Shown here piece after piece: positions 22,269 to 49,145 of a stretch of 53,581 nucleotides of DNA (position 1 is its first letter; each line of letters starts with the position of its first letter). The stretch covers positions 1 through 53,581 of the forward strand of contig CAIYYT010000250.1 in NCBI GenBank assembly GCA_903930455.1. The letters run 5' to 3'. The translations under genes were made by a program, and so were the position numbers. Source of the DNA: an uncultured bacterium. GTDB taxonomy: Bacteria; Zixibacteria; MSB-5A5; CAIYYT01. Below the pieces are notes generated by a model, which was not told where the DNA came from, ran no database searches, and saw nothing but the letters and a program-made list of their open reading frames with translations.

Positions 22269-22649
22269 ATGAACATCCCAGAGGGCTTGAAATACACGCG
22301 CGAGCACGAATGGGTTAAGATCGAAGGTGACGTAGCGATTGTGGGAATTACCGAGTATGCTCAGGGCGAATTGGGCGACATCGTCTTCGTGGAATTGCCT
22401 CCGGTTGGCAAGGCAGTCAAACAGATGGAACCGTTTGGAACCATCGAAGCGGTTAAGGCGGTCAGCGAGATGTTTTCGCCGCTTTCCGGAGTTATCAAGG
22501 AAACCAACAAAAGTCTGGAAAAGGATTCAACGGTTATCAACAAGGATCCCTATGGCGCCGGTTGGATCATCAAGATCGCCAAATTCGATCCTTCGGAAGT
22601 CAACGCGCTGCTAGACGCTGCCAGCTACCGCAAGCTGCTAGAGGAATAG
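22269..22649 (+). CDS. gcvH: Glycine cleavage system H protein
   Basis: GcvH is the lipoyl carrier that shuttles the aminomethyl group between the P and T proteins of the glycine cleavage complex. The 126-residue product has the family's standard start (IPEGLKYTREHEWVKIEG), the lipoylation site Lys63 in TIEAVKAVSEM and the DPYGAGWIIKI segment. A TTGGAGGA site precedes ATG 22269, 12 bases after accC, so transcription probably reads through from the acc genes. gcvPA follows after 3 bases. Confidence 0.96.
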   Translation: MNIPEGLKYTREHEWVKIEGDVAIVGITEYAQGELGDIVFVELPPVGKAVKQMEPFGTIEAVKAVSEMFSPLSGVIKETNKSLEKDSTVINKDPYGAGWIIKIAKFDPSEVNALLDAASYRKLLEE

Positions 22650-22652
22650 GAT

Positions 22653-23990
22653 ATGACATTCGTCCCCCACTCCGATCGCGAACGTCAGGAGATGTTGCGC
22701 GATATCGGAGTCGATAGTTTTGAAGAACTGCTTCAAGGTATTCCTGAGTCGTTGCGGTTAAAGAAGCCACTGAATCTTCCTGAAGCGCTTTCGGAGTTTG
22801 AGACGGTGAAGATAATGGGGGAACTGGCCGCCAAGAACCACACGACGGCCGACTTCGCCAACTTTATGGGGGCGGGCGCTTATGATCATTTTATTCCGGC
22901 AGTAGTCGGGCATTTGCTTGACCGCTCGGAGTTTAGGACCGCATACACCCCCTATCAGGCCGAGGTATCACAGGGCACGCTGCAGGGAATCTATGAATTT
23001 CAGTCGCTGATTTGCCGGTTGACCGGTATGGATGTAGCGAACGCCTCGATGTATGACGGCGGTTCCGCTACTGCAGAAGCAGCGTTGTTGGCGTTGTCGG
23101 TGACGAACCGGCGCAAAATCGTGGTGTCGTCGCTGGTGCATCCCCATTATGTAGACTGCATCAGAATCTATCTTGGCGGGGAGGATATTGAAGTGGTGAA
23201 AGTCCGACATGACAACGGCATCATCGATGTGGATGATCTGAAAGCCAAAATCAAAGATGCCGCCTGTTTTGTCATGCAAAATCCGAATTTCTATGGCATC
23301 ATCGAACCGACCGATCACGTCCCACAGATAGTGAAGGAAGCGGGGGCGCTGTTGATCGTGGCAGTTAATCCGATTTCGCTGGCCCTCCTGAAGACGCCCG
23401 GAGAATTCGGCGCCGATGTCTGTATCGGCGAGGGACAGCCGCTGGGGAACAGTCTGAATTTCGGCGGACCTTATTTCGGTTTCTTCGCCACGAAAAAGGC
23501 ATTTGTACGGCAGCTTCCCGGTCGCCTGACGGCGATGACCAAAGATAAAAATGGAAAACGGGGATTTTGCCTGACGTTGCAGACCCGCGAACAGCATATC
23601 CGTCGCGACAAGGCGACTTCAAATATATGCACCAACGAAGCGCTCTGCGCCCTGGCCGGAACGATTTACATGGCGACGCTGGGTAAACAAGGGTTGAAGG
23701 AAGTGGCGCAGTTGTGTTTCAACAAAGCGCACTATCTAAGAGATCAGCTCTGCTCGATTCCGGGGGTGAAACTCGCGCACGACCGACCCTTCTTTATGGA
23801 ATTTGCCTTGAAGTTGCCGCAGCCCGCGGCGAGAGTCTTTGACCATCTGATCGAGAAGAAGATTTTTGCCGGCGTGCCGACTTCGCGGTTTGTGTGGGAA
23901 GATGATTGCCTGATCGTGTGCGCGACGGAGAAACGAACTAAGAGCGAAATTGATTTCTATCGTGACTCTTTGCGAGAGGTGATGGTTTAA
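22653..23990 (+). CDS. gcvPA: Glycine dehydrogenase (decarboxylating) subunit 1
   Basis: This is the N-terminal half of the split P protein, which with GcvPB decarboxylates glycine and passes the aminomethyl group to GcvH. The 445-residue product begins with the FVPHSDRERQEMLRDIG segment typical of GcvPA and contains TPYQAEVSQGTLQGIYEFQ and MYDGGSATAEA. It lacks the PLP lysine, which is in the other subunit. Its partner gcvPB is about 2.1 kb downstream instead of adjacent, with four genes between. Confidence 0.95.
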   Translation: MTFVPHSDRERQEMLRDIGVDSFEELLQGIPESLRLKKPLNLPEALSEFETVKIMGELAAKNHTTADFANFMGAGAYDHFIPAVVGHLLDRSEFRTAYTPYQAEVSQGTLQGIYEFQSLICRLTGMDVANASMYDGGSATAEAALLALSVTNRRKIVVSSLVHPHYVDCIRIYLGGEDIEVVKVRHDNGIIDVDDLKAKIKDAACFVMQNPNFYGIIEPTDHVPQIVKEAGALLIVAVNPISLALLKTPGEFGADVCIGEGQPLGNSLNFGGPYFGFFATKKAFVRQLPGRLTAMTKDKNGKRGFCLTLQTREQHIRRDKATSNICTNEALCALAGTIYMATLGKQGLKEVAQLCFNKAHYLRDQLCSIPGVKLAHDRPFFMEFALKLPQPAARVFDHLIEKKIFAGVPTSRFVWEDDCLIVCATEKRTKSEIDFYRDSLREVMV

Positions 23991-23991
23991 C

Positions 23992-24357
23992 ATGCCGTTC
24001 TGTCCAAACTGTGAGACCGAATACAAAGGCAATGTGTCTGTTTGTCCGGAATGCGGAGAGCATCTCATCGACACATCGGTGGAGGACCTCGAAGATCTGT
24101 CGGAGGAGATGGAAGATGACATGATCCTGCTATATCGCTCCAGCGGCCGCGCCAATTCAGACGCGCTGATGGATGCTTTACGGGATGCCGGGATACTCTA
24201 CGTGTTCAAGGCCTCGGAAGACACGGGCCCGCGTGGAAAGAAGACGCTCTACCGCACCGCCTTTGTGGATGGTGAATTCTTCGTGAACGAAGAGGATTAT
24301 GATACTGCCAAAGAGATCGCCGAATCAGTATTGGGTGATCTTGAAGACGATCTTTAA
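23992..24357 (+). CDS. Zinc-ribbon protein with DUF2007-like domain, paralogue 1
   Basis: The 121-residue acidic product has an N-terminal zinc ribbon (Cys4, Cys7, Cys18, Cys21: CPNC and CPEC). It is followed from about residue 42 by a domain resembling DUF2007 (putative signal-transducing family): ILLYRSSGRANSDALMDALRDAGI, then a C-terminal VNEEDYDTAKEIAESVL. It is the first of three tandem paralogues with the same cysteine spacing. It starts one base after the gcvPA stop codon, so it belongs to the gcv operon. The function is unknown; a metal- or redox-linked regulatory role is a guess. Confidence 0.8.
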   Translation: MPFCPNCETEYKGNVSVCPECGEHLIDTSVEDLEDLSEEMEDDMILLYRSSGRANSDALMDALRDAGILYVFKASEDTGPRGKKTLYRTAFVDGEFFVNEEDYDTAKEIAESVLGDLEDDL

Positions 24358-24406
24358 TAGGCCACGCCTGTCAAGAGCGATCCTGACCAGCCAGAATTGA
24401 GGTTTT

Positions 24407-24838
24407 ATGCCCTATTGCCCCGATTGTTTGATGGAATACCTCGACAGCATTGATGTCTGCCCCGATTGTGGCGCCAAGCTGTTGCCCGGTTTACCTCCGG
24501 AAAAAACGGATAACCCGGATGATGAAATCGATGCGGTCTTGCTGCTGAAGGCGGAGAACGTGATGCAGGCGAAGTTCCTTGCTGCGGCCCTCGACGATGC
24601 GGACATACCCTATGTTGCCAGAGGTATTGGGATTACCGATTCAATCGGTGGGTCGGCAGGTGGTGATGTGGCCTTCGGCGCATACTCATCCCATAGCGAT
24701 CCGGAAATATATGTTAATCCCAGTGATCTCGCGGCCGCCCAGAAAGTGCTGGACTCTATCAGCGGAAGTGAGTCTTCGGATGATCAGGACATCGACAGCG
24801 ATTCCGGGAGTTCGTCTTCAGATCCTACGCAGGCGTGA
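24407..24838 (+). CDS. Zinc-ribbon protein with DUF2007-like domain, paralogue 2
   Basis: The 143-residue product has the same zinc ribbon (Cys4, Cys7, Cys18, Cys21: CPDC and CPDC). Its DUF2007-like domain is VLLLKAENVMQAKFLAAALD, then DADIPYVA, then IYVNPSDLAAAQKVLDSI. A glycine-rich insertion (GGSAGGDVAFG) and a Ser/Asp-rich tail (about 120-143) distinguish it. GAGGTTTT precedes ATG 24407. The next paralogue overlaps its stop codon region. Confidence 0.8.
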   Translation: MPYCPDCLMEYLDSIDVCPDCGAKLLPGLPPEKTDNPDDEIDAVLLLKAENVMQAKFLAAALDDADIPYVARGIGITDSIGGSAGGDVAFGAYSSHSDPEIYVNPSDLAAAQKVLDSISGSESSDDQDIDSDSGSSSSDPTQA

Positions 24839-24846
24839 GTTTGGCC

Positions 24847-25266
24847 ATGCATCATTGCCCGAAGTGCTATTACGAGTATGAATACCGTGTCTCAGTCTGC
24901 CCGGATTGTGGCGTGTCCTTGGTTGATGGTCCGGTGCCGACAAAACAACCGGTCGTTCGCTCTTCAGATGATGATGACGATGCATTGCTACTGTTTGAGA
25001 GCCAGGACTTTCTCAAGCTGCGGTTCCTGCTTGATCTATTGGATCAAGAAGGAATTCCCTATGCTACGCAGAAGATGACGCAGTATGGCGGAGCTGCCGC
25101 TTCCGAGATTCTCACGGTAGGGTTGTCGGCGGCTTCAACCGTGGGGGGTATCGCCCGAGTCTATGTCGCCGCCGAGAACTTCGAGCAAGCGAAGGAATTA
25201 TTGGCAGCACTGGAAGGAATTGCACTTACGGGAGACGAAGATATTGATTTGGAGGATGAACCATAG
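24847..25266 (+). CDS. Zinc-ribbon protein with DUF2007-like domain, paralogue 3
   Basis: From ATG 24847 the product is 139 residues and its cysteines fall at 4, 7, 18 and 21 (CPKC and CPDC), exactly as in the two upstream paralogues. That alignment decides the start over GTG 24835, which overlaps the upstream stop codon. The DUF2007-like part reads LLLFESQDFLKLRFLLDLLD, then QEGIPYAT, then VYVAAENFEQAKELLAAL. An Asp run precedes it and the tail is acidic. The selenoprotein gene begins at the base after its stop codon. Confidence 0.78.
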   Translation: MHHCPKCYYEYEYRVSVCPDCGVSLVDGPVPTKQPVVRSSDDDDDALLLFESQDFLKLRFLLDLLDQEGIPYATQKMTQYGGAAASEILTVGLSAASTVGGIARVYVAAENFEQAKELLAALEGIALTGDEDIDLEDEP

Positions 25267-26112
25267 ATGAAATATTTGACCGTTACCATTGCGTTGATGT
25301 CGCTGTTGTTCGCGTTGCCGGCGGTTCAAGCCAATACCCGGATCGGCGATCTGCAATTTGCCGACAACTTTGATTCGCTGATGGCACAGGCGCAACAGTC
25401 GCAGAAGCTAGTCATTATCGACTGGTTCACGGATTGGTGAGTGTGGTGTAAGAAGATGGCGGATACCACGCTGCCTGATTCTTACGTTCAGAAGTTTCTG
25501 AACAACTTTGAGATTGGAAAGATCAATGCCGAGGTTGACACAATGACAGCGGCGCGCTTTGGTGTGCGAAGTTTTCCAACCGTGCTAATGCTGAAACCGA
25601 ACGGAATGGAGATTGATCGGATTGTCGGCTACCTGCCGCCGGTCGAATTCGTAACGGCGATTGTCAATGCGATGTCGGGAATCGGGACGCTGGAAGATCT
25701 GCTGAACAAGCTTGCCGGAAAGCCGAAGGATATCGAGTTGACATACGAGATCGGCCAGAAATATCGCTGGCGCGGTGATTATGATAAGGCAGCGACATAT
25801 TTCCAGGAAGTTATGATGCTGGACCTCGGCAACGGCAAGAAGATGGCGGCGCAGGCGGCGTTTAATCTGGGACACATGCAGTACAAGAAGAAGAATTATA
25901 CCGCCGCAATCGCAAACTGGCGCGATATGATTAAAGCTTACCCGCAGGACTCCGCCGGTATTGAGGCGCAACTGATGATCGCTCTGAGTTATCAGAATGC
26001 GAAAGACTTCAAGAATGCGAAGGTGGAGTTCAAAAGTTTCCTCAAGAAATATCCTGACACTGAAGAGAAAGATTGGATTAACGAGCAGTTAGCCAAGATG
26101 GAGAAGAAATAG
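25267..26112 (+). CDS. Probable selenoprotein: exported thioredoxin-fold protein (UxxC) with TPR-like C-terminus
   Basis: ATG 25267 has GGAGG 11 bases upstream and immediately follows the previous stop codon. The first 57 codons encode a signal peptide (LTVTIALMSLLFALPAVQA) and the start of a thioredoxin fold (KLVIIDWFTDW). The next codon is TGA (25438-25440). The same frame continues VWCKKMADTT and INAEVD, with the cis-Pro loop SFPTV and GYLPPVEF, then TPR-like helices from about residue 150 to TAG 26110. The TGA replaces the first Cys of the CxxC motif, giving Sec58-Val-Trp-Cys61 in a 281-residue protein. The intact frame on both sides, the exact catalytic position and the family's usual DFYTDWCxWCKKM pattern support selenocysteine. 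A Cys-to-stop mutation or sequencing error is the alternative. A standard gene caller would report only a headless fragment from about 25441. Likely role: thiol-disulfide or peroxide chemistry in the periplasm. Confidence 0.85.
25438..25440 (+). other. In-frame UGA, predicted selenocysteine codon (Sec58)
   Basis: TGA stands between GATTGG and GTGTGGTGT. Genes in this window use TGA as a normal stop, so genome-wide TGA reassignment is not the explanation and context-dependent recoding is required. The residue aligns with the nucleophilic N-terminal cysteine of the thioredoxin CxxC motif. Confidence 0.82.
25441..25475 (+). promoter_or_regulatory. Candidate bacterial SECIS stem-loop
   Basis: Directly after the UGA, GTGTGGTGT (25441-25449) can pair with ATACCACGC (25463-25471). 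This gives nine pairs including two G-U wobbles, with a 13-base loop rich in G and A (25450-25462). A smaller alternative stem, GGCGG (25458-25462) with CTGCC (25471-25475), lies about 17 bases after the UGA, within the distance usual for bacterial SECIS apical stems. Which of the two forms is not decided by sequence alone. Confidence 0.5.
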
Positions 26113-26118
26113 ATTGCG

Positions 26119-27573
26119 ATGAACAATGTTGATAGTCCGTTGATTTTCGAGCTGTCGCGTGAGGGACAGAAGGGGTACTCGCTGCCGAAATGTGACGTGC
26201 CTGAATTGGCGATGGAGAAGCTGATCGGCAGTGCCAATCTGCGCGCGCAAGACGCGGCGTTGCCGGAAGTATCCGAGAATGAGATCGCCCGTCATTACAT
26301 CCGCCTGTCGGTGATGAATCATCACATCGACAAAGCGATCTACCCGCTTGGTAGTTGCACGATGAAATACAATCCGAAAGTAAGCGAAAAGATCAGCGGC
26401 TTTCCGGGATGGACGGAACTGCATCCGTTCCAACCTGCGCGTACCGCACAGGGGGCGCTGCACCTGATGTATGATCTGGCGCGGATGCTGGCGGAAATTG
26501 CCGGGATGGAAGAAGTCACGCTGCAGCCGACTTCCGGCGCACAGGGGGAGTTTACCGGTATACAACTGGCCAAGGCACACTTCAGACATATCGGCGAGAA
26601 GCGCGTTAATGTCCTGCTTCCCGATTCGGCGCACGGCACCAATCCAGCATCGGTGGCAATGTCGGGATATAAGCCGGTGCAGATCAAGTCGAGCGATCAA
26701 GGGCTTTTGGATCCGGCGGTGCTGGAGAAAACTCTTGATGAATCGTATGCGCTCGTCATGTTGACCAATCCGAATACACTGGGGTTGTTTGAACGGGAGA
26801 TCAAACGGGTATGCGAAATTGCGCACAGCAAGGGCGCGCTGGTTTATATGGATGGCGCCAATCTCAATGCGCTGATGGGAATCGCGCGACCGGGAGATAT
26901 GGGCTTTGACATTCTGCATATCAATCTGCATAAGACGTTTTCCACGCCGCATGGTGGTGGTGGACCGGGTGGGGGCGCAGTCGGTGTCAAAAAACTGCTG
27001 GCGCCCTATCTGCCGCTGCCGGTCGTCTGCAAAAATGAAAAGCAGTATTACTTCGACTACGACCGTCCCCTGTCAATCGGCAGGTTGCATGCCTTCTATG
27101 GCAACTTCTCGATAATGGTGCGGGCCTATACATACATCCTCATGCTCGGCGGCAAAGGTTTGCGTGAAGCATCGGAAGCGGCGATCATCAACGCCAACTA
27201 TCTGAAAGAGAGGCTGCGCAAGCGGTACAAGCTGGCATACGATTATGTCTGTATGCATGAGTTCGTGTTGTCGGGTGACAACCAGAAAAAGCTTGGAGTC
27301 AAGACGTCGGATATCGCCAAGCGTTTGCTCGATTTTGGTGTGCATGCGCCGACGATTTACTTCCCGCTGATTGTGTCGGAAGCGTTGATGATCGAACCGA
27401 CCGAGACGGAGTGCAAACGTTCACTCGATGAGTTTGTGCAGATCATGTTGCAGATTGCGGATGAAGTCGAGACCAATCCCGACATCGTGAAAAACGCTCC
27501 GCAAAACACTCCGGTCGCGCGCTTGGATGAAGCGTTAGCGGCAAGAGAGCTGAATGTAAGCTATCAGGGGTGA
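26119..27573 (+). CDS. gcvPB: Glycine dehydrogenase (decarboxylating) subunit 2
   Basis: This is the C-terminal half of the split P protein, holding the PLP site. The 484-residue product contains [13 protein letters not shown]-type sequence ([13 protein letters not shown]), [25 protein letters not shown] and the PLP lysine Lys272 in [18 protein letters not shown]. It starts six bases after the selenoprotein stop codon without an obvious ribosome binding site, which suggests coupling to the upstream gene. If so, its translation might depend on read-through of the UGA. No gcvT or lpd is in the window. Confidence 0.95.
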
Positions 27574-27813: not shown

Positions 27814-30642
27814 ATGAAAATTGTGACTGTTCTGTCTTTCTGCTATTTGCTGGCTGTCGTGGAAATGGCGTTCGTTGCAATCAGTCCCTCGGTTGTCGTA
27901 GCGGCAGAGTGTGGGGATGCCGATGGCGACGGTGCCGTAAACATTTCTGATGCGACTTACATTCTGCAATACATATTTAGGAATGGACGGGCGCCTGCTC
28001 CCGGTACAAGCGATGTCGATCTCTGCGGCAGTACAAATGTGTCAGATGCCCTTTACATTCATCGATATATTTTTGCGGGGGGACCGGCGCCTTGCCAGGG
28101 CAGTGACCCCTGCTTTTTTCCTACCGGTGGAAACCTCGTGGAAATCCACGGCTGTCCAAAGCTAGTCTCGTCAGCAACGGGCGGAGGAATTAGATTGCCG
28201 GTCCATATTTCAAATGAGGACACCATTTCGGCGCTTTCGATCGGTTTTCGGTTGACTTCCAACGATATGACGATCATCGCTGTAGATTTCACGGGTTCTG
28301 TCCTCCGGGATGTTGACACATCGTTGGTGTCAATTTCACCATCAACAGGGGGAGCCTCGGATAGCACGGTTGTTCTTATCGGATGGTTTACGACGATGCC
28401 ATCGAAGGTACTGCGGCCTCAGCAGGACGGACTATTGGCAACCCTAACGCTTGCGGTTCCCCCGGGCACGCCGAATCAATATGTGAATCTGGACTCAGCT
28501 TTTGTACCGCCGGGCGGCGAATTCATCTTCATGCGCAAGTGGGCCGGCACAATAAGACCGCAATATATTCACTGTGACTCGGCAGATATTATTGTGGGTG
28601 ACAGTGTTTCTTGTATAGACTCTGATTCCGACGGCTGGGGCGATCCCGGACACCCAGAGAACCAGTGCGCCGACGACAATTGCCCGTTTGTATACAACCC
28701 CAATCAGGCCGACGCTGATCATGACGGCATCGGCGACACCTGCGACTACATATGTGGCGACGCCAATGGCGATGCATCAGTAGATATCACGGACGCCGTT
28801 CATATCGTGAATTATATTTTCAAAGGTGGTGGAGTTCCCGGTTTGCGTGAAGCGGACGCTGATCAGTGCGGGAGCGTCAACATGTCGGACGCCGCCTACA
28901 TCATGAATTACGTATTTGGCGGTCCGCCACCATGCCCGAGCGGACTGACTTGCCATTTGCCGACAGGAGGCAACAAGGTCGAGATCGGTGGCTGTCCACA
29001 CATTGTCATCTCGTCCTCCGGTGGGCAAGTGAGACTGCCAATTTATATTACCAATACGGATACGCTCATCGGTCTGTCACTGGGGTTTCAACTCAGTTCC
29101 TATGCAGTTGCCTTCCAGTCGGTAGATTTCGCAGGCTCTATTCTACTCAGTCCTCACAACCCCATGATTTGGGGTGCGACAGTATCCCCCACTGTCGTCA
29201 AGATTCGATATCTATCTGAGCTATCTGAGGGGCTTCCTCTGTTGCCCCAGCAACGTGGTCTTTTGGGTACTATCATAGTTGATGTCCCGCCGGGCACTTT
29301 GCCGCAAGACATAAGCATAGACTCTGCGTTTGTGGCTCCGGCTTGTGAATTCATTTTCTGTCCCCGCCGTGGGGGGACTATCACGCCGCAGTATGTCCAT
29401 TGCGGTGCAGCCGATATCAGGATTATCGACTTAGCAGTGTGCTTCGATACGGACGAGGATGATTTTGGTGATCCAGGGCATCCCGAGAACACCTGTCCGA
29501 CTGACAATTGTCCCACTCGCTATAATCCCAGTCAGCAGGACACGGACCATGATGGTATTGGAGACATTTGCGACAACTGCCCGACAGTGGCGAATATCAG
29601 CCAATTGGATGCTGACGCTGACTTGATTGGTGATGCTTGCGACAACTGCCCATCCGTGAGCAATCACGATCAGAAAGACACGGATAGTGATGGTTTGGGA
29701 GACGTCTGCGATCCGGACATCGACAATGATGGCATCTTGAATGCTTCCGACAACTGCCCCTACACGTACAACCCCGATCAGGTTGATTCTGACCACGATG
29801 GGCATGGTAATGCTTGTGACAAAGACTCGGTCAGGCTTGTCGTCACAGACGGTGAGGGCACTGGTGGTGTCAAGGACAGCAGTTTTGTCGTTCAGGTGTA
29901 CGTAACCCCAAAGATAGAGACCATAGGAGGATCATTGGGATTCAGTTGGGCGCAGGGAAACTGCTGCTGGCATCTTGAGTCAGTGGTTTTCGGGCCGGTA
30001 ATTAGCCAGTGGAGCACAAAATCATATACGCCTCGAACCGGTACTAATGGCAGTGACGCCAACTCGTGGGTTCTTATAGGTGGTTCCAACAGTCCAGGCG
30101 AGTCTTCACTAACGCCAGGCAATACCTATTTGTGGGCGGAGATGACTTTCAAAGTGAATCCAGGAGCCGCGAATTCATGGCAAGCTGGCGACCAAATGAA
30201 GTTGGATAGCATTTTTGTTCCACCAGCCGGATTTTTCCAACTGGTTCACGCCGGTATAATTCCCGCAGTTCCTGGTTTTGCAGGGCAGGTCATAGTCTTC
30301 CCTGCCGATAGCGACTCTGACGGAATAGTTGACCTTCATGACAATTGCCCATTGGTTCTTAATCCCAACCAGAGCGATTCCAACGGAAATGGTATAGGCG
30401 ACGCCTGCGATTTCGGTTGCTGCAATGTGGCTGGAGATGCCAACAATGATGGGATAGTTGACATTTCTGATGTGGTGTATCTTATTAGTTACATCTTTGC
30501 CGGTGGTCTTTCCCCGTACTGTAAGGATGAGGGCGACGCGAACGGTAGCAATCAGATAGACATTTCAGATGTTGTTTACCTGATCTACTACATTTTTGGT
30601 GGAGGAACATCTCCGAAGTGCGGTACGACAGGGTCCAGATAG
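27814..30642 (+). CDS. Large secreted protein with alternating dockerin-like, cohesin-like and thrombospondin type 3 repeats
   Basis: The 942-residue product has a signal peptide (1-33), then in order: dockerin-like pair 1 (about 35-97), cohesin-like domain 1 (105-265), a TSP3 calcium repeat (268-312), dockerin-like pair 2 (313-376), cohesin-like domain 2 (383-540), several TSP3 repeats (545-670, DxDxDGxGDxCDNCP pattern), cohesin-like domain 3 (672-830), TSP3 (830-866) and dockerin-like pair 3 (869-939). Domains 1 and 2 with their flanks form an obvious internal duplication (EIHGCPKLV and EIGGCPHIV). The dockerin and TSP3 parts are clear calcium-binding loops. The cohesin assignment is by general pattern ([20 protein letters not shown]) and less certain. 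It is probably a cell-surface scaffold. It has its own strong promoter. Confidence 0.82.
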
Positions 30643-47225: not shown

Positions 47226-49145
47226 CTATTCCCCTTTAGTGATCGTAATTCCCCAGCGTTGCGGATTGTTGGGGGGATCGGAGTTCCAGTTGCCAAAAGA
47301 GTGGCTGTCGTCGGAGACGAAACGCGCGCGGTATTTGCCGGCGTCAAGCATAACGTAAGTATCAACCAGCCGATTTTTATCCGCGCCTCCCGCCCACTTG
47401 CTTCTCCGGTAGGTCATTTCCCACACGATATCATCATCGGCGGCATTCTCGATCCAGCCGTAGTCAGCCATGTCGCTGCCAGAACCCTCTCCCAGACAGA
47501 CCACATGGACGCGCGTCGGTTTGTCGAGGACAAAGACTTGCGACTCGTCGGCGTCATCTCCGACATAGGTTATCTTCGCCAGCACATTGGCTGACGCTGT
47601 CTCTTTCGGTAACTGCTTGATGATTGTCGGATCGAAGGACTTGCTGGTGGCAAAAATGCTGATTCCATAGTTCTTCTGATCGTAGGGTGGCCCTGAGTTC
47701 CAGTCGCCGTAGGCGTGTGAGTCATCGGTAACATAGCCAAGCACGTAATTCCCCGCAGTCAGATGCACGATGTCATCAAAATCGCGGTTTTTCGAAGCGC
47801 CCCCGGCGTGATGTGTATTGCGCTCGGTCATCTCCCAATAGAGATCTTCGTCCCCCACACGTTCGATCCAGCCATAGTCAGCAAAGGCGTCGCTACTTTC
47901 GCCATACTCGCCGATTGCGTAAACGCGGACATCGCAGTCCTTGGCGACATGGAACGGTATGGTCTCAAAGAAATCATTATCGGCGCGGACGATGGCAATC
48001 AAAGCCGCCTGAGAATAGGTATCCTGATAGGGTTTGACATACTTGAGATCGTCCTTGCGGAGAGCATTGACACGGATGCCATAAGCCTGCGGATTATAAG
48101 GGGGTGCCGCATTCCAATCGTCGTATGTGTGAGAGTCGTCAGTGACGTAGTACAACAGGTAGTTGCCTTTGGGCAGATCCAGCCGTTCGGTCACCAGTTT
48201 ATTCTTTTCGGCGCCTCCAGCCGGATCGGTGGTAGCTTCGGTCATCGACCAGACGCGCTTACGTGTGTCAGCATTGACAATCCAGCCGTAATCGGCGAAA
48301 TCGTCGGCCATTCCGGCGTTTTCGCCCAAGGCTGTGATTTCGACCTGCATCGGCTGAGCCAAACTGAATCCTTTTGAAGCATAAAGGTTATTTTCCGGTT
48401 GAAGAATCTCGGCGATAACTCTGTCGGAGTTGTACGCGCACTCAATGCGGGAGATATCTTTGGCATCGCTGGTGATCTCAAGGGAATATTCTTTAATGAT
48501 TTCATCGGACACATCGCTATCACTCAGGTCGAATACATCACCGTTGATGACAATCCTGTTGGAAGGATCACTGGAGTCGGTCTTGCCCTTTTGTTCTTTC
48601 AGCTTGGCCTTCTGTTTCTCCAATTCTTTTTTCTGATCTTCAAGCTTGGCCTTCTGCTTTTCCAATTCATCTTTTTGGTCGCTAAGATCGCTAAGATTGA
48701 TCTTGAGCTTCTCTAACGCCTTTCCCAAACCGCTCAGATCAAACGAAAAGCCGGATATCGTTGAGGGGGAACCGGCGTAGAAATAGACTTCATAATCCCC
48801 CGGCTCTAACTCTTGCGTGCTTTGATACTCGCGCAGATACTTATCGCGTTTGTAGCGGTCGGTGTTGTCGATCGTCATTTCCCAAACCGGACTGAGTGAC
48901 CCGGAACGGATAATCCAACTGTAGGCTGCCATCTGGTCGCGGTTAAATGCCGACAAAGCGCCAACGGCGTGGATGTCGATCGATGTCGGTTTTGTCACTC
49001 GGAAGGCTCGGCAGAACAATTCACCTTGGTGAAAGCCGTCAATCAGGAGGATGCGGTCTTTTGCATATGTTGTAGCTGTAGATAGAATAAGAAGGGTAGC
49101 GAAAACGAGTGAACCGAGGCGTCTGCAATCAAGAGCTGTCAGCAT
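47226..49145 (-). CDS. Secreted protein with four tandem beta-rich repeats and a coiled coil
   Basis: The 639-residue product has a signal peptide (LVFATLLILSTATTYA). A degenerate first repeat (about 30-135, YSWIIRS, VWEMTIDN) precedes a Lys/Glu/Gln coiled coil (about 140-190) and three clear repeats of 135-140 residues. Each repeat reads DYGWI, then a WEMT motif, then AGGAxKNR, then a DDSHxxxxWN segment ending YGI or WGI. The DDSH motifs lie at about 341, 480 and 618. I do not recognise this domain. The conserved aspartates and histidine suggest a metal or ligand site. It follows the PfkB gene by 12 bases on the same strand. Confidence 0.75.
   Translation of the reverse strand: MLTALDCRRLGSLVFATLLILSTATTYAKDRILLIDGFHQGELFCRAFRVTKPTSIDIHAVGALSAFNRDQMAAYSWIIRSGSLSPVWEMTIDNTDRYKRDKYLREYQSTQELEPGDYEVYFYAGSPSTISGFSFDLSGLGKALEKLKINLSDLSDQKDELEKQKAKLEDQKKELEKQKAKLKEQKGKTDSSDPSNRIVINGDVFDLSDSDVSDEIIKEYSLEITSDAKDISRIECAYNSDRVIAEILQPENNLYASKGFSLAQPMQVEITALGENAGMADDFADYGWIVNADTRKRVWSMTEATTDPAGGAEKNKLVTERLDLPKGNYLLYYVTDDSHTYDDWNAAPPYNPQAYGIRVNALRKDDLKYVKPYQDTYSQAALIAIVRADNDFFETIPFHVAKDCDVRVYAIGEYGESSDAFADYGWIERVGDEDLYWEMTERNTHHAGGASKNRDFDDIVHLTAGNYVLGYVTDDSHAYGDWNSGPPYDQKNYGISIFATSKSFDPTIIKQLPKETASANVLAKITYVGDDADESQVFVLDKPTRVHVVCLGEGSGSDMADYGWIENAADDDIVWEMTYRRSKWAGGADKNRLVDTYVMLDAGKYRARFVSDDSHSFGNWNSDPPNNPQRWGITITKGE

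Follow-up and report, generated by a model that had tools for sequence, protein, structure and literature searches.

Selenocysteine (Sec)-containing thioredoxins, in which Sec replaces the first cysteine of the redox motif to yield UxxC, are a listed and experimentally verified selenoprotein family (PMC9312934, PMC13188914). A second listed kind is a predicted 'thiol:disulfide interchange protein' selenoprotein, which bears its UxxC in a Thioredoxin_2 domain (PF13098; PMC13188914). Here we describe a gene in a 53,581-nucleotide stretch of DNA (the window) that very likely encodes a selenoprotein, with the UGA at 25438-25440 being read as Sec. Its product, an exported protein combining a thioredoxin domain with a TPR tail, shares with the Sec-containing thioredoxins the thioredoxin fold (PF00085) and, very probably, Sec in the place of the first cysteine and the bacterial SelB/SECIS type of decoding, but differs from them in being exported and fused to TPRs, and in that its gene lies between gcvPA and gcvPB across the phylum. 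With the thiol:disulfide interchange selenoprotein it has in common a UxxC in a Thioredoxin_2-type domain (PF13098, e-value 6e-11), but the inventory names no TPR fusion, the two being compared by description. The thioredoxin part further resembles the DsbD-like C-terminal domain of TsoB (NCBIfam NF045694; 49.8 bits), a rhodanese/DsbD fusion-like selenoprotein, but this score falls well short of the family cut-off (805 bits) and the window protein contains neither the rhodanese nor the membrane part. A DsbD transmembrane domain (NF001419/PF02683) was likewise not recovered in the window protein, its likeness to DsbD being confined to the C-terminal thioredoxin part of the latter, and among the NCBIfam models shown none reached its cut-off. 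Given that it scores 57 bits against the general thioredoxin model TIGR01068 (curated cut-off 96.8), and that it is exported and TPR-fused, we do not regard it as a classical thioredoxin.

Cysteine-containing thioredoxins from Bacteroidota, Ignavibacteriales and Hydrogenedentota metagenome-assembled genomes (L084-L093) display the same WCVWCKKM motif with Cys at 25-34% identity; nine of the ten can be aligned at residue 58, all with Cys, and the similarity falls mostly in the leader and thioredoxin part, not in the TPR tail. A term search of the text of PMC9312934 and of the 2026 selenoprotein inventory (PMC13188914) did not recover a TPR fusion, and our literature search, with most subscription journals outside its reach, found nothing specific on the protein, its architecture or the gcv link. 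The UxxC thioredoxin kind is known; the thioredoxin-TPR subfamily and its gcv setting are apparently undescribed in the searchable literature.

Gene frame and domain architecture

The gene (25267..26112, forward strand, as are all features below) is a frame of 281 codons running from an ATG at 25267 to a TAG at 26110-26112, and reading of the sequence reveals a sole in-frame TGA at 25438-25440. The ATG directly abuts the TAG of the preceding gene, and a probable ribosome-binding site, GGAGG (25251..25255), is recognizable from the sequence 11 nt 5' of it. A preliminary description of this DNA had placed the TGA at the first cysteine of a thioredoxin CxxC motif; the coordinates prove exact, with the TGA encoding residue 58 of the 281-aa product and the TGT at 25447..25449 encoding the resolving cysteine C61, as seen in both the sequence and the homologue alignment. 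The motif thus reads U58-V-W-C61, a UxxC in which the TGA occupies the first position.

The protein begins with a probable cleavable signal peptide (MKYLTVTIALMSLLFALPAVQA; 25267..25332), whose cleavage site is a sequence-based prediction. The thioredoxin domain (residues 33-125; 25363..25641) was recovered with PF00085 (e-value 3e-13) and PF13098 (6e-11), the match to the former scoring 50.1 bits in a profile search, above the curated cut-off of 23.5. This match spans the TGA, in agreement with the earlier suggestion that the signal peptide and half of the fold lie upstream in the same frame and the remainder downstream. The FPT at the expected place contains P104 (25576-25578), which, from our knowledge of the thioredoxin fold, we take to be the candidate for the cis-proline loop position. 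The C-terminal tail (about residues 153-271; 25723..26079), previously described as TPR-like, is indeed present and can now be assigned with confidence to TPR families (PF13174, PF07719 and PF13525), with helical hairpins in the predicted model. In that single-sequence structure prediction the TPR part is usable and the thioredoxin part is poor (pLDDT <50). Standard ORF calling yields just a 223-aa fragment starting with the GTG at 25441, so that the start of the gene is lost, as had been anticipated. Among the in-frame TGA candidates within the window, that at 25438-25440 has the strongest upstream coding signal; weaker candidates at 48375 and 28777 are not associated with a redox motif.

Residue 58 across the phylum and the Sec machinery

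Of 133 genomes of the phylum, whose assemblies are mostly fragmented and of uneven quality, 121 gave a match in a homologue search at a threshold of E 1e-20, and the codon aligned to residue 58 could be read in 124 homologous loci. It is TGA in 68, TGC or TGT in 53 and a serine codon in three. All 68 TGA-bearing homologues have Cys at position 61 and exactly one in-frame TGA within the aligned region, and the 56 non-TGA forms have none. Given its recurrence in one column, the TGA does not owe its placement to chance, which the preliminary description had judged improbable; likewise, the position is not taken by unrelated residues in homologues, an outcome that would have spoken against Sec, since Cys is found in 53 of the 56 non-TGA forms and Ser in three. 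Because the TGA occurs at the same residue across many relatives in the phylum, we consider the protein a true selenium enzyme of a known kind, apparently not described before.

In G002, the nearest relative carrying the gene (64% identical), residue 58 is likewise encoded by TGA. Between the two genes the nonsynonymous distance amounts to 0.40 before the TGA, 0.15 in the downstream thioredoxin part and 0.34 in the TPR part, and synonymous distances are near 2 or saturated. The nonsynonymous values being far lower than the synonymous ones, all parts of the protein, on both sides of the TGA, are under constraint. On a tree of the 124 homologues at least 18 changes between Sec and non-Sec forms are required, against a mean of 41 when the states are shuffled.

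Both redox positions are occupied by U or C and by C, respectively, in 117 of the 124 homologues. The 56 non-Sec forms comprise 49 with CxxC, four with CxxS and three with Ser at 58; the loss of one redox residue or both thus affects seven. These seven (L053, L062, L027, L054, L061, L067 and L068), with SxxS, SxxC or CxxS, retain the thioredoxin-TPR architecture beside gcvPB. As three have Ser at 58, two of them as SxxS, redox chemistry appears dispensable in some lineages, and the pattern of residue loss suggests that the protein may have a non-redox role there. A different situation is seen in the paralogues of family f2 (L073 and L075-L079), which have Sec in motifs such as UGSC or UGGC and a very strong hairpin, and for which gcv neighbors were not detected; in genomes with these Sec paralogues the gcv-linked copy has Cys, Sec and Cys being split between paralogues.

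The preliminary description also implied a Sec pathway in this lineage, and selA, selB, selC and selD are all found in the genome to which the window belongs (G000; 3.77 Mb, rated 100% complete). The tRNA-Sec gene (C99:1528-1617; anticodon TCA according to ARAGORN), selA (C99:1872-2954) and selB (C99:3014-4861) adjoin one another on a single contig. Two selD genes score above the cut-off. One of them (L081; C55:33130-34053) codes for a selenoprotein itself, with an in-frame TGA in a UxxK motif (GUASK) and a SECIS-like hairpin, GACCAA-AGUUC-UUGGUC, whose loop begins 19 nt past its UGA. The other, on contig C197, lies within a 734-aa open frame without TGA and is apparently a fusion.

Within a first set of genomes with the Sec form, 30 of 33 have a strong tRNA-Sec match; a search with the tRNA-Sec model did not find a clear one in the other three (G021, G030 and G045). 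In G030 part of selB is found where a contig ends. G021, rated 100% complete, has two TGA-bearing genes, selD and an f2 paralogue, and yielded no clear selB or tRNA-Sec match, which may reflect either a gap in the assembly or the pathway's loss. In a genome of the same genus as the window (G001) the thioredoxin-TPR gene was not found, nor selB or tRNA-Sec above the cut-off; we rejected its use as a natural gene-loss control, as it lacks a clear gcvPB match too and a gap is indistinguishable from loss.

SECIS-like hairpins and alternative readings of the TGA

In the published model of the bacterial SECIS element a stem of at least 4 bp carries a 3-9-nt loop that lies 16-37 nt after the UGA and has a G as its first or second nucleotide; some bacterial elements fall outside this model, according to a 2026 review (PMC13188914). 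Hairpins with at least six contiguous pairs, a loop G and a predicted energy of -5 kcal/mol or lower occur in 51 of the 68 Sec genes versus four of the 56 non-Sec genes (Fisher p 2.5e-15, a value that ignores the relatedness of the genes). With stems of at least 5 bp, 59 of the 68 Sec genes have a hairpin fitting the model, and complete pairing (six of six) in any one of four registers is seen in 55 of 68 Sec versus seven of 56 non-Sec genes. When genes of the first set were compared with protein-preserving synonymous recodings, unusually strong hairpins emerged in 15 of 33 Sec and none of 25 non-Sec genes. Since relatedness inflates the counts, the p-values are not to be taken as probabilities for independent events.

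The hairpins fall into distinct registers relative to the UGA. The proximal one (+11..+27), with a UGGAY or UGGCA loop, is typical of the f2 paralogues and of most members of families f4, f5 and f11, and displays compensatory changes, e.g. C-G, A-U, G-U and U-A at positions 13-25. In 31 Sec genes, most of which belong to family f7, the register is +18..+33 and the loop is invariably GGUC; another register, at +18..+35, is used by family f18 and by the window gene's own family, f1. In the window gene the candidate SECIS (25448..25485) would consist of an outer stem pairing +8..+14 with +39..+45, together with an inner hairpin, GGCGG-AUACCACG-CUGCC (25458-25475; +18..+35), which is at the same position as in relatives and has an atypical loop. 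The 45-nt segment folds with -14.7 kcal/mol, and none of 300 synonymous recodings is as stable. The inner stem GGCGG/CUGCC matches in position the GGCAGA/UCUGCC of G002, whose hairpin is predicted in local folding and absent in a 150-nt context. The position-conserved stem of the window gene forms five of the six pairs, G is absent from the first and second positions of its loop, and an alternative hairpin that fits the published model has just four weak pairs. The window gene's own SECIS is therefore the weak point, its hairpin being stable but atypical. We did not take a strong stem close to the UGA, GUGUGGUGU...AUACCACGC, for the SECIS, because the 64%-identical relative does not conserve it.

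Some Cys forms also have such hairpins. In the seven non-Sec genes mentioned above the six pairs of one register are all intact, and these genes seem to have switched from Sec to Cys recently. The sequence of the Sec-type hairpin (GACACGGTCGTG or CGATACCGTGACGTATCG) is wholly or mostly retained in the Cys forms L116, L117, L120, L126-L128, L131, L145, L146, L152 and L157, where it is likely a SECIS remnant left by recent conversion. Remnant SECIS structures following Sec-to-Cys conversion have been described earlier (PMC1794560).

These data bear on two other explanations of the TGA. TGC and TGT, codons present at this position in many relatives, are each one base away from TGA, and the gene might accordingly be a broken Cys form, either a pseudogene or the product of a base-call error. 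However, 68 separately assembled genes have TGA at this very residue and none elsewhere in their frames, a pattern that refutes this for the family and for which the base-call error against which the preliminary description had cautioned cannot account; with the protein under purifying selection before and after the TGA, a Sec pathway in the genome and hairpins mostly confined to TGA genes, such an explanation is scarcely credible. Alternatively, the UGA could be read as another amino acid, owing to a code change or a suppressor tRNA, such as a Cys- or Trp-tRNA with the anticodon UCA. The residue replaced is usually Cys, and the tRNA-Sec model weakly matches other tRNAs too, both of which would accommodate this reading; nevertheless, it is extremely improbable. 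TGA is the ordinary stop of eight of the 34 long ORFs in the window and so has not been reassigned wholesale, the two next-best tRNA-Sec matches in the genome are ordinary tRNA-Ser(TGA) and tRNA-Leu(CAA) genes, and the sole UCA tRNA seen among the part of its tRNAs that was examined is the canonical tRNA-Sec beside selA and selB. We therefore favor a selenoprotein, and infer Sec insertion in this particular strain from the sequence.

Export, the glycine cleavage neighborhood and function

In 120 of the 124 homologues a simple heuristic, used rather than SignalP, detects K or R followed by a hydrophobic leader, which upholds the proposed export of the protein; the same heuristic detects a lipobox-like motif in 35. 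The gene order in the window is accC-gcvH-gcvPA-three zinc-ribbon/DUF2007 genes-thioredoxin-TPR-gcvPB. Here gcvH (22269..22649; PF01597, 1.2e-42) codes for the glycine cleavage H protein, gcvPA (22653..23990; PF02347, 2.6e-129) for glycine dehydrogenase subunit 1, and gcvPB (26119..27573; PF21478/PF02347), which starts 6 nt past the selenoprotein stop, for subunit 2. The three small zinc-ribbon/DUF2007-type genes (23992-24357, 24407-24838 and 24835-25266) span 23992..25266, and such genes recur between gcvPA and the thioredoxin-TPR gene in relatives. Right after gcvPB, at 27814-30642, the window codes for a protein of 942 aa that combines thrombospondin type 3 repeats with several dockerin type I domains; similar repeats are encoded near the selD on C197 (L082). 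With gcvPB directly downstream in 107 of the 124 loci and gcvPA usually upstream (90 of 124, many of the remaining loci ending at contig or fetch edges), the thioredoxin-TPR gene is embedded in a glycine-cleavage cluster. Exceptions include the f2 paralogues, and in G003 the gene order is unchanged but the thioredoxin-TPR gene is missing.

This setting invites two further readings of the UGA and of the protein. Termination at the UGA, giving a 57-aa product, and read-through might both be meaningful, with selenium-dependent read-through tuning gcvPB by translational coupling, as the close spacing to gcvPB in the window and many relatives, along with the frequent linkage, would allow. However, Cys forms free of UGA hold the same position, with gcvPB downstream in 51 of the 56 non-Sec homologues, so that the UGA is unnecessary for the arrangement, and we regard such a switch as highly unlikely. 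Somewhat better placed, though still unlikely, is a selenoprotein whose main role is that of a redox sensor or scaffold acting through its TPR part, for instance in regulating glycine or one-carbon metabolism: redox-deficient homologues do persist beside gcvPB (e.g. L053 and L062 with SxxS and L027 with SxxC). Yet glycine cleavage is cytoplasmic and the thioredoxin-TPR proteins bear export signals, so the gcv link may be one of shared expression and not direct contact. Moreover, the great majority of homologues keep both redox residues, and Sec, where it is used, normally occupies a catalytic redox position (PMC13188914, PMC1794560).

We accordingly consider the protein a probable thiol-disulfide oxidoreductase of the periplasm, with a TPR tail that would serve in binding, its catalytic direction, client and reductant being deduced by analogy. 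In the mechanism we propose, the hairpin just past the UGA would guide SelB to deliver Sec-tRNA(Sec), so that the UGA at 25438-25440 is read as selenocysteine and translation proceeds to the TAG at 26110. The signal peptide would then export the product, where, going by the thioredoxin and selenoprotein families, the U58 selenolate may attack a disulfide or oxidized thiol of a client and C61 may resolve the mixed selenenylsulfide, with the TPR tail presumably binding the client or a partner. A DsbD-like membrane protein whose gene lies elsewhere in the genome would probably return the oxidized form to the reduced state; a DsbD-like protein with CANC in its C-terminal domain is encoded on contig C185. 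It is doubtful, but conceivable, that the exported selenoenzyme is functionally tied to glycine cleavage throughout the phylum, forming a selenium-dependent link of envelope thiol chemistry with glycine and one-carbon metabolism in which selenium supply feeds into gcvPB expression or activity.

With this gene a subfamily in which at least 68 members have Sec joins the known selenoproteins, and in the phylum these would be annotated as truncated proteins that lack both export signal and active-site residue. The family is also a natural experiment in Sec/Cys exchange, with at least 18 changes, Cys genes that have hairpins apparently inherited from Sec ancestors, similar constraint on the protein, and a hairpin-to-UGA distance that differs between families. 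Finally, its fixed place between gcvPA and gcvPB poses a testable question.
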